A stretch of DNA of 63,276 bases from Prochlorococcus sp. AG-436-D21 (GTDB taxonomy: Bacteria > Cyanobacteriota > Cyanobacteriia > PCC-6307 > Cyanobiaceae): assembly GCA_003212655.1 (NCBI GenBank), contig QCPF01000006.1, forward strand, positions 1 to 63,276, in the 5' to 3' direction. How positions within the stretch are numbered: the stretch's first letter is position 1; each line of letters starts with the position of its first letter. Positions 7,156 to 10,627 of the stretch are shown here, in pieces. The notes beneath the pieces are model-generated. The model had not been told where the DNA came from, searched no databases, and was given only the letters and a program-made list of their open reading frames with translations. Made by a program: the position numbers and the translations under genes.

Positions 7156-7422
7156 ATGGAAGATAATACTGCAAAATATTGGTTCTCTTGGTTTTATGAA
7201 AAGTGGGAGAAAAATGCTCCAGGTGAATTAATTGAACAAGGTTTAACTCCGTCTCAGATTGCTGAGCGCTTTGTTAATGAAAACCATGATAGTTTTATTC
7301 AATTGTCAAAAAAAATTGATGAAAAAAATTATGATGCTTTAACTGAATTTATGAAACTCTCAGAGAGTGAATTACATATCTTGAAGTATTTTCTAAAGTT
7401 AGTAAAAATGAAAAATTTATAA
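7156..7422 (+). CDS. conserved small protein (88 aa), unknown function
   Basis: An 88-residue soluble protein with an aromatic N-terminus (KYWFSWFYEKWEKNAPGEL), a helical LTPSQIAERFVNENHDSF segment and a Leu-rich C-terminal helix. There is no signal, span or catalytic cluster. The conserved-looking Trp/Tyr pattern and non-random composition support a real gene. It is divergent from murD and its last six bases overlap the 3' end of the convergent dehydrogenase gene. I do not recognise a named family. Confidence 0.65.
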   Translation: MEDNTAKYWFSWFYEKWEKNAPGELIEQGLTPSQIAERFVNENHDSFIQLSKKIDEKNYDALTEFMKLSESELHILKYFLKLVKMKNL

Positions 7423-8346
7423 GAAGTTATTAAGTATTTCGAGGCTTTTTTCCCATAAATTTTTTCTTTCTTTTTTATTCATAGCGAAAGGAGAAGTAGG
7501 GGATAGTTTTGGATGACCTCTGAAATTAAATCTAGGACCATAATGATCACCGCCTCTTGCGTCTGGTGAAGTAGCTGCAAAAAGCTGAGGTAAAGCACCC
7601 ATCTCAGCAGTTTGAAAAATAGGACTAAATAATTCCAATGAGAATGTTTCTAATGGTCCAGGGTTAGGTTTTTGAGCAGTAAAGAGATTTGTTTTTGCAA
7701 TTCCTGGGTGAGCAGCTAAAGAAAGTATATTTTTGTGCTTTAAGTTCTCATTTAGTTCCAAAGCAAACATTACATTTGCCAATTTGCTATTGGAGTAAGA
7801 TTCCCATTTGTTGTAATAGTTCTCGGCTTTCAGATTTTTCCAACCGACTTTGCCAAAAAATTGTGCTCCTGAAGTCACCGTCACTATTCTAGATTCTTCT
7901 TTTTTTTCAATAATTGGAAGTAGCTTTAGAGTCAAAAGCATATGAGCTAGATGATTAACTGCAAATTGTATTTCATATCCTTGGGCACTAAGAGTTTTAG
8001 GCGGATGCATAATGCCTGCATTATTGATTAGTAAATCCAAATTTTCAAAATTATCAAAAATTTTGGACTGAACTTCAACAATATTTTTTAAATCTGACAA
8101 ATCTAATTCTAAAGGTGTAAATAATCCTTCAGGATTAAGACCTTTAAGTTTTTTGATAGTTTGATTAGCTTTTTCAAGTGATCTACAAGCTATAACAACA
8201 TGAGCATTTTTTTCTGCTAAAGCCTTTGCAGTGTAGTATCCAAGACCACTATTCGCACCAGTAATTAGCGCTGTTTTGCCTGTAAGGTTTGGAATATTAG
8301 ATGTTTCCCAGTTAGAGATTTTAGGTCTTGAAATAGTGGCAGTCAT
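7417..8346 (-). CDS. short-chain dehydrogenase/reductase (retinol-dehydrogenase / protochlorophyllide-reductase-like)
   Basis: A 309-residue classical-type SDR. The NAD(P)-binding motif TGANSGLGYYTAKAL sits at about residues 29-43, followed by an ACRS segment that favours NADPH. The NNAG motif is present (LLINNAGIMHPP), then the catalytic Ser (VTVTSGAQ) and the YSNSK catalytic Tyr-Lys pair. The length and the overall pattern are those of the retinol-dehydrogenase-like group that also includes light-dependent protochlorophyllide reductase, but it lacks the features I would need to call it Por. The substrate is unknown. It converges with the 88-aa gene with a 6-nt overlap. Confidence 0.88.
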   Translation of the reverse strand: MTATISRPKISNWETSNIPNLTGKTALITGANSGLGYYTAKALAEKNAHVVIACRSLEKANQTIKKLKGLNPEGLFTPLELDLSDLKNIVEVQSKIFDNFENLDLLINNAGIMHPPKTLSAQGYEIQFAVNHLAHMLLTLKLLPIIEKKEESRIVTVTSGAQFFGKVGWKNLKAENYYNKWESYSNSKLANVMFALELNENLKHKNILSLAAHPGIAKTNLFTAQKPNPGPLETFSLELFSPIFQTAEMGALPQLFAATSPDARGGDHYGPRFNFRGHPKLSPTSPFAMNKKERKNLWEKSLEILNNFL

Positions 8347-8453: not shown

Positions 8454-9203
8454 TTATTTTTCAATTGCATATTGCCATTCGTTATTTTGAGATAAACTTT
8501 TCTCCCTAAGTAACTGTAATTTCCTACTATTTATTTTTACAACTATCCCATTAGTTGGATATTTCGCAAATATTTTTTTCTCTAACCAATTTTTTTTATA
8601 TATTTGGATTTCGCTTGTATGATTTGTGAAGTAACTGTCAGGGGTGCTGAAGCCACATTTTTTAAGATAGTTAAGGGTTTCGTATTGATTAAGTCTTCCA
8701 TTAAGTATTTGGAAACAGCAAAAGCGGAGACTTTCTCCAATCCCTTTCTTATCATTGAGGTATTTTCTTGTAATTCTTTGGGAAATGCCGGCAACTTGGT
8801 TTGTAGCATATAGTTCACCTCTAATTTGAAAATCTCGTTTGATAGGAATATAATCGGGGACGTTTTTAATTTGTTTAATTTTGCTTGAGACATCAAATCC
8901 TTTTTTTGTAATAGCTTTATTAAACTTGCCATCTAGATATCTAATTGCAATAGCACAGCCATCAATTTTTGGTTGAATGCTTAATCTTGTTTTCGTTAAC
9001 AAACTTTCCAAAAATTCTTTATAGTTTTCTTTGGCTAATTTTGGCAAAAGTTTATTATTTTTTTGATTAAAATAGTTAGGCTCTTGATCAACAGGAATAA
9101 AGAGCTTTTCAAGTTGCTTAAATGCATCATCGGAAATTATGCCTTCACCTATCCTGTATTGTTCATCTAGATACTTAACATCTCTCACTAATAAATTATT
9201 CAT
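8454..9203 (-). CDS. stand-alone NAD+-dependent DNA-ligase-like adenylation domain (LigA domain Ia plus NTase only)
   Basis: At 249 residues this matches only the first third of LigA (about 670). Residues 5-35 look like domain Ia, which binds the NMN half of NAD+. The nucleotidyltransferase core follows: K79-I-D-G (motif I, the adenylated Lys), R128-G-E130 (motif III), NGIVVKIN at 218-225 (motif IV; the usual first Asp is Asn) and W243 to K249 (motif V), where the protein ends. There is no OB fold, zinc finger, HhH or BRCT domain. By eye, the domain Ia Tyr and one Asp are kept (Y16, D25), but the partner His, Tyr and Asp appear changed (R17, F28, K29). Adenylation chemistry is plausible; nick sealing alone is doubtful. 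Divergent from the photolyase-like gene. Confidence 0.82.
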   Translation of the reverse strand: MNNLLVRDVKYLDEQYRIGEGIISDDAFKQLEKLFIPVDQEPNYFNQKNNKLLPKLAKENYKEFLESLLTKTRLSIQPKIDGCAIAIRYLDGKFNKAITKKGFDVSSKIKQIKNVPDYIPIKRDFQIRGELYATNQVAGISQRITRKYLNDKKGIGESLRFCCFQILNGRLNQYETLNYLKKCGFSTPDSYFTNHTSEIQIYKKNWLEKKIFAKYPTNGIVVKINSRKLQLLREKSLSQNNEWQYAIEK

Positions 9204-9478: not shown

Positions 9479-10627
9479 ATGTCATTTTTATTAAAAGCTC
9501 AAAATACCTGGGAAAATTTTGCGAAATACAAAATCAATGATTATGCAAAATTAAGAAATTTTGATTTTGGGCCAAATAACGAAAGTTCAGTTTCAAAATT
9601 ATCGCCTTTCATTACTCATAGAATATTGTCGGAATATGAGCTGATTCATGATATTAAAAGTAAGTACAAAATCAAAAATTCAACTAAATTTGTTGAAGAA
9701 ATATTTTGGAGAGTTTACTGGAAAGGGTGGATGGAAAATAGACCTAAAGTTTGGAGAAATTTTATTTCAGAAAACAATCTCGATTTTGATTATGAGTTAT
9801 ATGAAAGTGCAATTAATGGCAATACAGAATTAGATTATTTTAATTCTTGGGTACATGAATTAAAGCAGTACAACTATTTGCATAATCATACAAGAATGTG
9901 GTTTGCGAGTACTTGGATATTTAATTTAGGCCTCCCATGGCAATTAGGAGCAAAGTTTTTCTTTAAATATCTTTTTGATGGAGATGCTTCATCTAATCTC
10001 CTTAGCTGGAGATGGGTCGGAGGATTGCAAACGAAGGGAAAACAATATCTTTTTTCATCATCAAACCTCAGAAAGTTTTCAAATAATAGATTTAAAGTAG
10101 AAAAAATAAGTAATCAACAAATTTTTCTTGAAGAATCTAATCAAATACCATTTGAAGATGAGATTTATAAAAATGATATGGATCCTAAATCAGATAATCT
10201 GCTTATGTTTGAAAATGATCTACACCTTGCAACCCTTAAAAATTTACTTCCAAGCTATAAAAAAGTATTTATTATCCTTTTAAAAAATGAACAAAGACAA
10301 ATTAAATTGTCTGAATCTGTATTGAAATTTAAACAAGATTTGGTCTCTGAATTTTTAGAGCAATTTGATAATGTTGAACAGATTGATCCTTATTTTTTGG
10401 AAAATAATTTTAAAAATACTAACGAAATAGACATTATTTATCCTGGAGTGGGAGAAAACTATGATTTCATAACTGAGTTTAAAAATTTACACCATAAAAA
10501 AGTTTTTAATCTTGTGAGGGATGAAGATTTATTTGCTTGGAAATTTGCTAAAAGAGGGTTTTTTAAATTTAAAGAAAATATTCCAAAAATAAATCAGAGA
10601 ATATTAGAAAATTTTTCAAAAAAATAA
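9479..10627 (+). CDS. photolyase/cryptochrome-like protein, apparently circularly permuted (FAD domain first, alpha/beta domain last)
   Basis: Residues 1-205 match the FAD-binding helical domain of photolyases: SKLSPFITHR at 39-48, EEIFWRVYWKGW at 73-84, HNHTRMWFAS at 135-144 and WQLGAKFF…DGDASSNLLSWRW at 154-179. In ordinary photolyases this domain is C-terminal, behind a Rossmann-like domain that starts with a WFRxDLR motif. Here the protein begins directly with the FAD domain, and residues 241-376 look like the missing domain: LLMFENDLHL for the WFRxDLR strand, a strand KVFIILL, a helix at 277-297, a strand IDIIYPG, and FFKFKENIPK near the end, similar to the FTPFxxxW boundary motif. CPD or other DNA lesion repair is likely by family but unproven. 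Confidence 0.82.
   Translation: MSFLLKAQNTWENFAKYKINDYAKLRNFDFGPNNESSVSKLSPFITHRILSEYELIHDIKSKYKIKNSTKFVEEIFWRVYWKGWMENRPKVWRNFISENNLDFDYELYESAINGNTELDYFNSWVHELKQYNYLHNHTRMWFASTWIFNLGLPWQLGAKFFFKYLFDGDASSNLLSWRWVGGLQTKGKQYLFSSSNLRKFSNNRFKVEKISNQQIFLEESNQIPFEDEIYKNDMDPKSDNLLMFENDLHLATLKNLLPSYKKVFIILLKNEQRQIKLSESVLKFKQDLVSEFLEQFDNVEQIDPYFLENNFKNTNEIDIIYPGVGENYDFITEFKNLHHKKVFNLVRDEDLFAWKFAKRGFFKFKENIPKINQRILENFSKK

Follow-up and report, generated by a model that had tools for sequence, protein, structure and literature searches.

The analysed window is the whole 63,276-nucleotide stretch of contig QCPF01000006.1 from Prochlorococcus sp. AG-436-D21 (assembly GCA_003212655.1). On its forward strand, an open reading frame with an ATG start (9479-10627) represents a phr7-type gene, whose 382-residue product is a photolyase with its domains in reversed order (NewPHL/Phr7). 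All motifs that a first-pass annotation of the locus had quoted are present in the translation. The FAD-binding catalytic domain (FAD_binding_7; residues 1-205, 9479-10093), delimited by Pfam, phmmer and alignment, is shortened at its C-terminal end. It is followed by a linker with low confidence in the AlphaFold2 model (residues 206-236, 10094-10186) and by a C-terminal domain, or Z-domain (C-domain; residues 237-382, 10187-10624), which probably represents a photolyase alpha/beta domain of the antenna type in shortened form, as judged from models, fold comparison and a profile chain.

Both genes considered in the neighbourhood lie on the reverse strand. The first (8454-9203) codes for a protein of 249 residues whose sole match is the adenylation domain of NAD-dependent DNA ligase (PF01653, E 1.3e-18), and it is still found beside phr7 in another genome of the genus (L036), whose phr7 is 67% identical. 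A short-chain dehydrogenase gene (7417-8346) lies near phr7, with one gene between. In a second genus within the family (L234 and L235), a relative of this dehydrogenase with 53-54% identity directly follows phr7; apart from it, the approximately 8.5 kb examined there gave no match to window ORFs of at least 80 aa.

Full or near-full Phr7 was detected at E <= 1e-170 in 50 of the 61 genomes of the same genus (G000-G060, AG-436-D21 included), with completeness values of 51 to 94% for the 11 genomes without it. Two genomes of the second genus encode a form of 370-371 aa (40% identity over ~380 aa). Among plasmids, 6 of 138 matching records cover at least 80% of Phr7; all six originate from Alphaproteobacteria, and the best plasmid matches are alphaproteobacterial FAD-binding-domain proteins (Ruegeria TM1040: 35% identity, residues 12-371, 2e-67). 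Because the order is conserved in same-genus genomes, in the second genus and on alphaproteobacterial plasmids, the reading frame is neither a chance product nor an assembly artefact. An ordinary photolyase that had been truncated or frameshifted was considered as well and rejected, given that the full-length order recurs in those 50 genomes and in Alphaproteobacteria.

Emmerich and colleagues are said to have described, in 2020, the NewPHL class of photolyases with inverted topology. The alphaproteobacterial plasmid proteins with a FAD-binding domain were taken as NewPHLs, and they stand in here for the characterised NewPHL proteins of D. shibae and M. mesophilicum. On a Novosphingobium THN1 plasmid (L188), a NewPHL-type gene is split into two pieces over two reading frames, owing to a sequencing error or as a pseudogene. 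When the Ruegeria relative was used as query against 386 phylum-wide genomes, 100 matched at E <= 1e-20. The threshold of E <= 1e-50 was reached only by 17 genomes of the same genus (AG-436-D21 included) and by both second-genus genomes. In the remaining 81, the match is weaker and covers the FAD region, to which the alignments of the two second-genus genomes are likewise confined in this search. In a tree of 48 FAD domains, eight Phr7 rows join eight alphaproteobacterial rows with a support of 100/99, and the resulting clade is placed on the Phr4/Phr6 side, apart from ordinary photolyases. In this tree, the alphaproteobacterial group itself has weak support (81/16), long branches meet, and all eight Phr7 rows are of deviant amino-acid make-up. 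A transfer from Alphaproteobacteria would be a natural reading of the patchy distribution, with a direction that the tree leaves unfixed. A phage origin was considered and rejected: viral contigs, scanned twice, contained no relative; in a phage collection, 10 records were 23-27% identical to parts of the segment 6-252, and phrog_25969 matches residues 7-190 (E 1.6e-22).

PF03441 (FAD_binding_7) is the sole Pfam match above cut-off (residues 71-193, E 1.3e-13, 51.2 bits versus a cut-off of 27). Of its 203 profile positions, the match covers 1-128, which reflects the shortening of the domain. In a phmmer search of the PDB, the C-terminal domain of photolyases was matched by parts of the segment 13-206 (best match 3.9e-10). 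Together with an alignment to class I enzymes, these matches back the earlier assignment of residues 1-205 to the FAD-binding domain. In this alignment, E74, W77, R78, N136, M140, W154, D167, D169, N173, W177 and W179 fall on the class I motifs ELAWR, HNRxRM, DW and DGDLAANNGGWQW, and none of them varies among the 11 sequences of alignment A1. The segment EIFWR (residues 74-78, 9698-9712), with its invariant E74, W77 and R78, contains the counterparts of the active-site Glu, Trp and Arg of ELAWR; HNHTRM (residues 135-140, 9881-9898) corresponds to the CPD-photolyase motif HN(R)xRM, whose Asn and Met are likewise invariant here; and DGDASSNLLSWRW (residues 167-179, 9977-10015) is the counterpart of DGDLAANNGGWQW, with its FAD-binding Asp and Asn and the WxW element. 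ELAWR and HN(R)xRM contribute to the active site of these enzymes, and the Glu/Asn/Trp/Met pattern is that of the CPD type; the FAD domain of the AG-436-D21 protein thus carries a CPD-type active site. The third tryptophan of the classical electron chain, located by E. coli numbering, seems not to be conserved, the aligned position being occupied by a residue other than Trp. With 0 cysteines in 382 residues, the protein lacks the four cysteines that define the Fe-S cluster of Phr4 and Phr6 and is therefore without a cluster of the Phr4 kind. The FAD-binding residues of the DGDLAANNGGWQW-type motif are as listed in PMC9426592, and the flavin-facing Asn (here N173) is kept by several subfamilies, NewPHL among them, according to PMC12083526.

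The departure at the third Trp position could be taken as a sign that photolyase activity was lost and that Phr7 acts as a cryptochrome-like light sensor. The Prochlorococcus gene PMM1360, probably the phr7 of strain MED4, might be cited to the same effect; if this identity holds, the other half of the enzyme would lie in the protein itself, as its diverged C-terminal domain. In PMC3441193, PMM1360 is described as a FAD-domain gene with a diel pattern like that of phrA and with expression below phrA. Such a sensor is nevertheless highly improbable: no variation is seen among the 11 aligned sequences at the counterparts of the active-site Glu, Asn, Met and Trp, and relatives repair CPDs in single-stranded DNA, as stated in PMC9426592 (citing Emmerich et al. 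2020) and in PMC13274461, which also gives the inverted topology of NewPHL. By analogy with these relatives, light-excited FADH- would most likely transfer an electron and thereby drive the repair of cyclobutane pyrimidine dimers, and the substrate of the AG-436-D21 enzyme would be the CPD, probably in single-stranded DNA.

The C-domain comprises ~146 residues, versus 202-257 residues in the N-terminal regions of 20 ordinary photolyases, whose boundaries were set approximately. The domain order given in the first-pass annotation stands, with the correction that both the FAD domain and the C-domain are shortened. The full-length AlphaFold2 model, based on an alignment of 36 close sequences (A3; the AG-436-D21 protein and 35 of 54 non-redundant relatives picked from 79), is poor, with a mean pLDDT of 48.3; over residues 231-350, its ten-residue pLDDT means range from 46 to 85 and a strand-helix unit is repeated five times. 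Modelled alone from 33 rows (A4; the AG-436-D21 C-domain and 32 others, 31 of them from the list of 54, plus L177), the C-domain reached a pLDDT of 72.3, with residues 347-364 below 50. The segment LLMFENDLH (residues 241-249, 10199-10225) forms the first predicted strand and is aligned with VVWVHGDRL of the Deinococcus protein (compare IVWIHGDDL in Phr5). At the other end, GFFKFK (residues 360-365, 10556-10573) constitutes a C-terminal aromatic motif that is aligned with the GF[FY]xx[KR] of alphaproteobacterial NewPHLs. The other candidates for the end motif are FFAFW in the Persicobacter protein, FSQFW in L231, FSRYW in Phr5 and GPFWKNW in class I enzymes. Visual comparison alone makes the earlier equation of FFKFK with FTPFxxxW plausible, and the C-domain model has a pLDDT below 50 at this point. 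FFAFW and FSQFW belong to two further reversed-order proteins with divergent C-domains (Persicobacter, L190 2908-4080; L231 1316-2641, reverse strand), which are possible intermediates between Phr5 and the Z-domain of NewPHL.

In a VIA-align comparison of the full-length model, the segment 237-359 superposes on photolyases and cryptochromes (their residues 2-151). This family fills ranks 1-23 without exception and accounts for 39 of the 50 listed rows (best match 7ykn: Z 7.4, rmsd 3.0, 110 aligned); in Foldseek, unrelated proteins head the list for the same model. With the C-domain-alone model, photolyase 4dja comes first (Z 7.7) and other Rossmann-like proteins are mixed in from rank 2, the CARF nuclease Can2 scoring near the photolyases (Z 7.4); photolyases account for 25 of the 50 rows listed, and many alignments overrun the N-terminal domain of the target. 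The model of the domain alone is thus less selective than the full-length one. Foldseek ranks a phosphopantetheine adenylyltransferase, another nucleotide-binding alpha/beta fold, first for the C-domain-alone model and a photolyase fifth. A BFVD search with this model returned 0 matches at E <= 0.001; among the 50 rows listed, a cytidylyltransferase-like protein leads and two viral photolyase entries appear at ranks 3 and 17. Because all Z values are below 8, fold comparison by itself does not decide whether the C-domain is an antenna domain. The Foldseek ranking and the Can2 score would also fit an unrelated Rossmann-like domain (CoaD- or CARF-like) that was recruited to cap the FAD domain, in which case the swap would be only apparent; the photolyases and cryptochromes at VIA-align ranks 1-23 argue against such a recruitment.

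At the profile level, none of Pfam, NCBIfam and PHROGs gave a match above cut-off for the C-domain. Pfam returned two weak matches (E 0.012 and 0.048, both below their cut-offs), with PF00875, the antenna domain, unmatched, and the best sub-threshold NCBIfam match was coaD_prev_kdtB (E 0.039), which again fits a recruited domain. An HMM built from seven alphaproteobacterial C-domains, by comparison, matched the C-domain of the AG-436-D21 protein (E 1.4e-6) as well as the C-domains of the 11 closest relatives (6e-8 to 3.5e-6); the sole row of the decoy set that scored above the Phr7 C-domains was the second frame of the split Novosphingobium gene, itself a true relative. In the reverse HMMER search with a profile of window-type C-domains (those of the AG-436-D21 kind), just 3 of the 7 alphaproteobacterial C-domains ranked above the first decoy. 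In hhalign, the alphaproteobacterial C-domains aligned with Phr6 at P 5.9e-4 and with Phr5 at P 2.5e-3, versus 0.5-0.7 for reversed-profile controls, and these scores were equalled by 0 of 200 column shuffles and by 0 of 28 unrelated families, one of which was a short-chain dehydrogenase (29 families were assembled and one was left out for containing photolyase rows). The Phr5/6 profile in turn aligned with the class I N-terminal domain at P 4.7e-10. For each of 4 Phr5 proteins submitted to Pfam, PF00875 (DNA_photolyase) ranked first, with E values from 1e-4 to 5e-3 that all fall short of the curated cut-off.

Comparisons with Phr5, Phr6 and class I were not significant in hhalign for the window-type C-domain alone (P 0.14-0.54) or for a pool of window-type and alphaproteobacterial C-domains (P 0.16-0.74), and the alphaproteobacterial C-domain did not reach significance when compared directly with class I (P 0.092, matched by 9 of 200 shuffles). 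Pooling weakens the signal of the alphaproteobacterial C-domains (P 0.16-0.27); an earlier pool without the second genus had given P 0.014 against Phr5. In HMMER, shuffles and decoys outranked every antenna domain when the pooled profile was used, and no significant link to Phr5 or class I was obtained. Because the window-type, pooled and direct class I comparisons are not significant, the profile link between the Phr7 C-domain and the antenna proteins Phr5/Phr6 appears to be indirect, via the alphaproteobacterial (NewPHL) C-domains. The profile search against the photolyase N-terminal family that had been proposed earlier gave no significant match in its direct form (PF00875, hhalign) and an indirect link by way of the chain. 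This chain counts against a recruited domain, as does the finding that the nearest relatives of the FAD domain are followed by an undoubted antenna domain, either in a neighbouring gene or fused, and the recruitment of an unrelated Rossmann-like domain is considered unlikely even though a significant HMMER link to antenna domains is missing. With moderate confidence, based on the comparison of the AlphaFold fold and on the profile chain, the last ~146 residues are regarded as a shortened photolyase antenna (alpha/beta) domain. The five strand-helix repeats, the best superposition on the N-terminal domain of photolyases and cryptochromes and the indirect profile link agree with the earlier view that the order is reversed and the protein not truncated. 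By analogy with its relatives, the C-domain would probably pack over the FAD domain like an ordinary antenna domain, shielding the flavin, and would probably no longer hold a strong antenna dye.

In other cyanobacteria, the Phr4-like FAD gene is a separate ORF, mostly of 244-320 aa, often followed by a Phr5-like antenna ORF of 136-219 aa, with some pairs overlapping by 4 bases. A CxxC...C tail is present in 4 of 5 Phr4 proteins inspected, that of L042 being without it. Among 291 genomes of the class, Phr4 was found in 63, Phr5 in 64 and both in 63, such that every genome with a FAD-only gene (63/63) also has the antenna gene, and one genome (G134) has the antenna gene alone. In 44 of the 63, the genes stand in the order phr4-phr5 on one strand with match ends within 400 bases, including one case (G313) of a single fused ORF; in 13, they are further apart on one contig (three within 2 kb), and in 6 they are on different contigs. 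Even where the genes have come apart, the coupling is therefore retained. For this count, Phr4 matches at E <= 1e-65 and Phr5 matches at E <= 1.2e-13 were taken, leaving out 13 Phr7-type matches, 28 matches with E values between 2e-23 and 1e-20 (regarded as ordinary photolyases, with frames of 443-525 aa), G139 and G295 (weak matches only) and secondary matches of G206, G252, G303 and G313. A Fisher test on the pairing treats the genomes as independent, which they are not. Outside the cyanobacteria, plasmid pDrdI of Deinococcus wulumuqiensis (L189, 2935-4374) encodes a fused photolyase, FAD domain first and antenna domain second, that belongs to the Phr6 type; its two domains are separated by a cysteine-rich stretch, and its antenna part is 46% identical to Phr5 over 134 aa.

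The original description of short photolyase-like (SPL) proteins is reportedly that of Xu et al. in 2021. SPLs are described in PMC9649867, PMC9498864 and PMC9178010, the first two of which cite the view that they stand near the family root. If a FAD-only photolyase were ancestral, the C-domain of NewPHL would be a later, independent addition and not a rearranged antenna domain, which would also suit its weak sequence similarity to antenna domains. Whether 'short photolyases' are ancestral single-domain enzymes or halves of a dimer can be tested directly by way of the strict pairing between genes for the FAD part and genes for the antenna part. With 0 FAD-only genes of this family unaccompanied by an antenna gene in the 291 genomes (63/63 paired), the FAD-only gene does not have the appearance, in cyanobacteria, of an independent enzyme with a single domain, and the reversed order is common to Phr4-5, Phr6, the Deinococcus fusion and NewPHL; an ancestral FAD-only enzyme is accordingly judged rather doubtful. 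Because all 63 genomes carry the antenna gene, adjacent in 44, the cyanobacterial 'short photolyases' look like halves of two-gene enzymes, and a pairing that is kept even at a distance suggests an obligate two-subunit photolyase. In its full form, the reading that short cyanobacterial photolyases supply the catalytic subunit, and Phr5, near or distant, the antenna subunit, of a photolyase that obligately needs both genes, and that NewPHL, Phr7 and Phr6 are refusions in swapped order, is put forward tentatively, at slightly under even chances. If it is true, it argues against an antenna-less family ancestor and makes a natural circular permutation traceable step by step, from split genes through overlapping genes and fusion to a reduced antenna.

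Taken together, Prochlorococcus phr7 very probably encodes a NewPHL-class photolyase composed of a FAD domain and a reduced alpha/beta Z-domain, with CPD repair as its probable function and a domain swap that most likely arose by way of split genes. Gene splitting and refusion are a likely route to the swap, which would most likely have passed through a stage of separate FAD and antenna genes, still seen as cyanobacterial phr4-phr5, before fusion. The swapped order, of which the first-pass annotation knew no case, had already been published for phr7 and for phr4/phr5/phr6 by Haney et al. 2022 (mBio, PMC9426592). That paper names phr7, gives its order as FAD domain followed by a C-terminal 'Z-domain' in Prochlorococcus HL and LLI, and describes split phr4/phr5 and fused phr6 of Synechococcus/Cyanobium with the same FAD-first order; its survey appears to cover picocyanobacteria and mentions Nostoc punctiforme with the same set. 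A heterodimer was suggested for the Synechococcus pair in PMC3441193. The domain-swapped photolyase is hence a published class, of which the AG-436-D21 gene is a phr7 family member. A literature search, with most subscription journals outside its reach, found no earlier report of phr4/phr5 pairing more widely in the phylum. The strict pairing across the 291 cyanobacterial genomes is the addition of the present analysis; the published swap is its ordinary part, and the pairing of the split genes is the part worth following.

Compared with the Phr7 of PMC9426592, the AG-436-D21 protein belongs to the same family, shares the order of N-terminal FAD domain and C-terminal Z-domain and lacks Fe-S cysteines; nothing of substance sets it apart, and it is another strain's orthologue, with ~84% identity in the best segment to that of MIT9302, the representative strain for Phr7 in that paper (L169). 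It resembles NewPHL in its inverted topology, its full-length homology to the alphaproteobacterial proteins and its place in a common clade, whereas the Prochlorococcus members form a branch of their own and have a strongly diverged C-domain. Phr4/Phr5 and Phr6, the nearest FAD-domain family outside NewPHL in the tree, likewise have the FAD part first and the antenna part second, but their antenna part can be recognised clearly, most Phr4 and Phr6 proteins carry the CxxC...C tail, and the enzyme is encoded by two genes or one. The SPL class probably contains, in cyanobacteria, the Phr4-type proteins, as suggested by PMC9178010; SPLs have no alpha/beta domain, whereas one is predicted at the C-terminus of the AG-436-D21 Phr7, and the second domain of Phr4-type proteins is a separate gene. 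With class I CPD photolyases (1owl, 1iqr), finally, Phr7 shares the FAD-domain motifs and the active-site residues, whereas those enzymes have full-size domains and an antenna domain N-terminal to the FAD domain, the reverse of the order found here.
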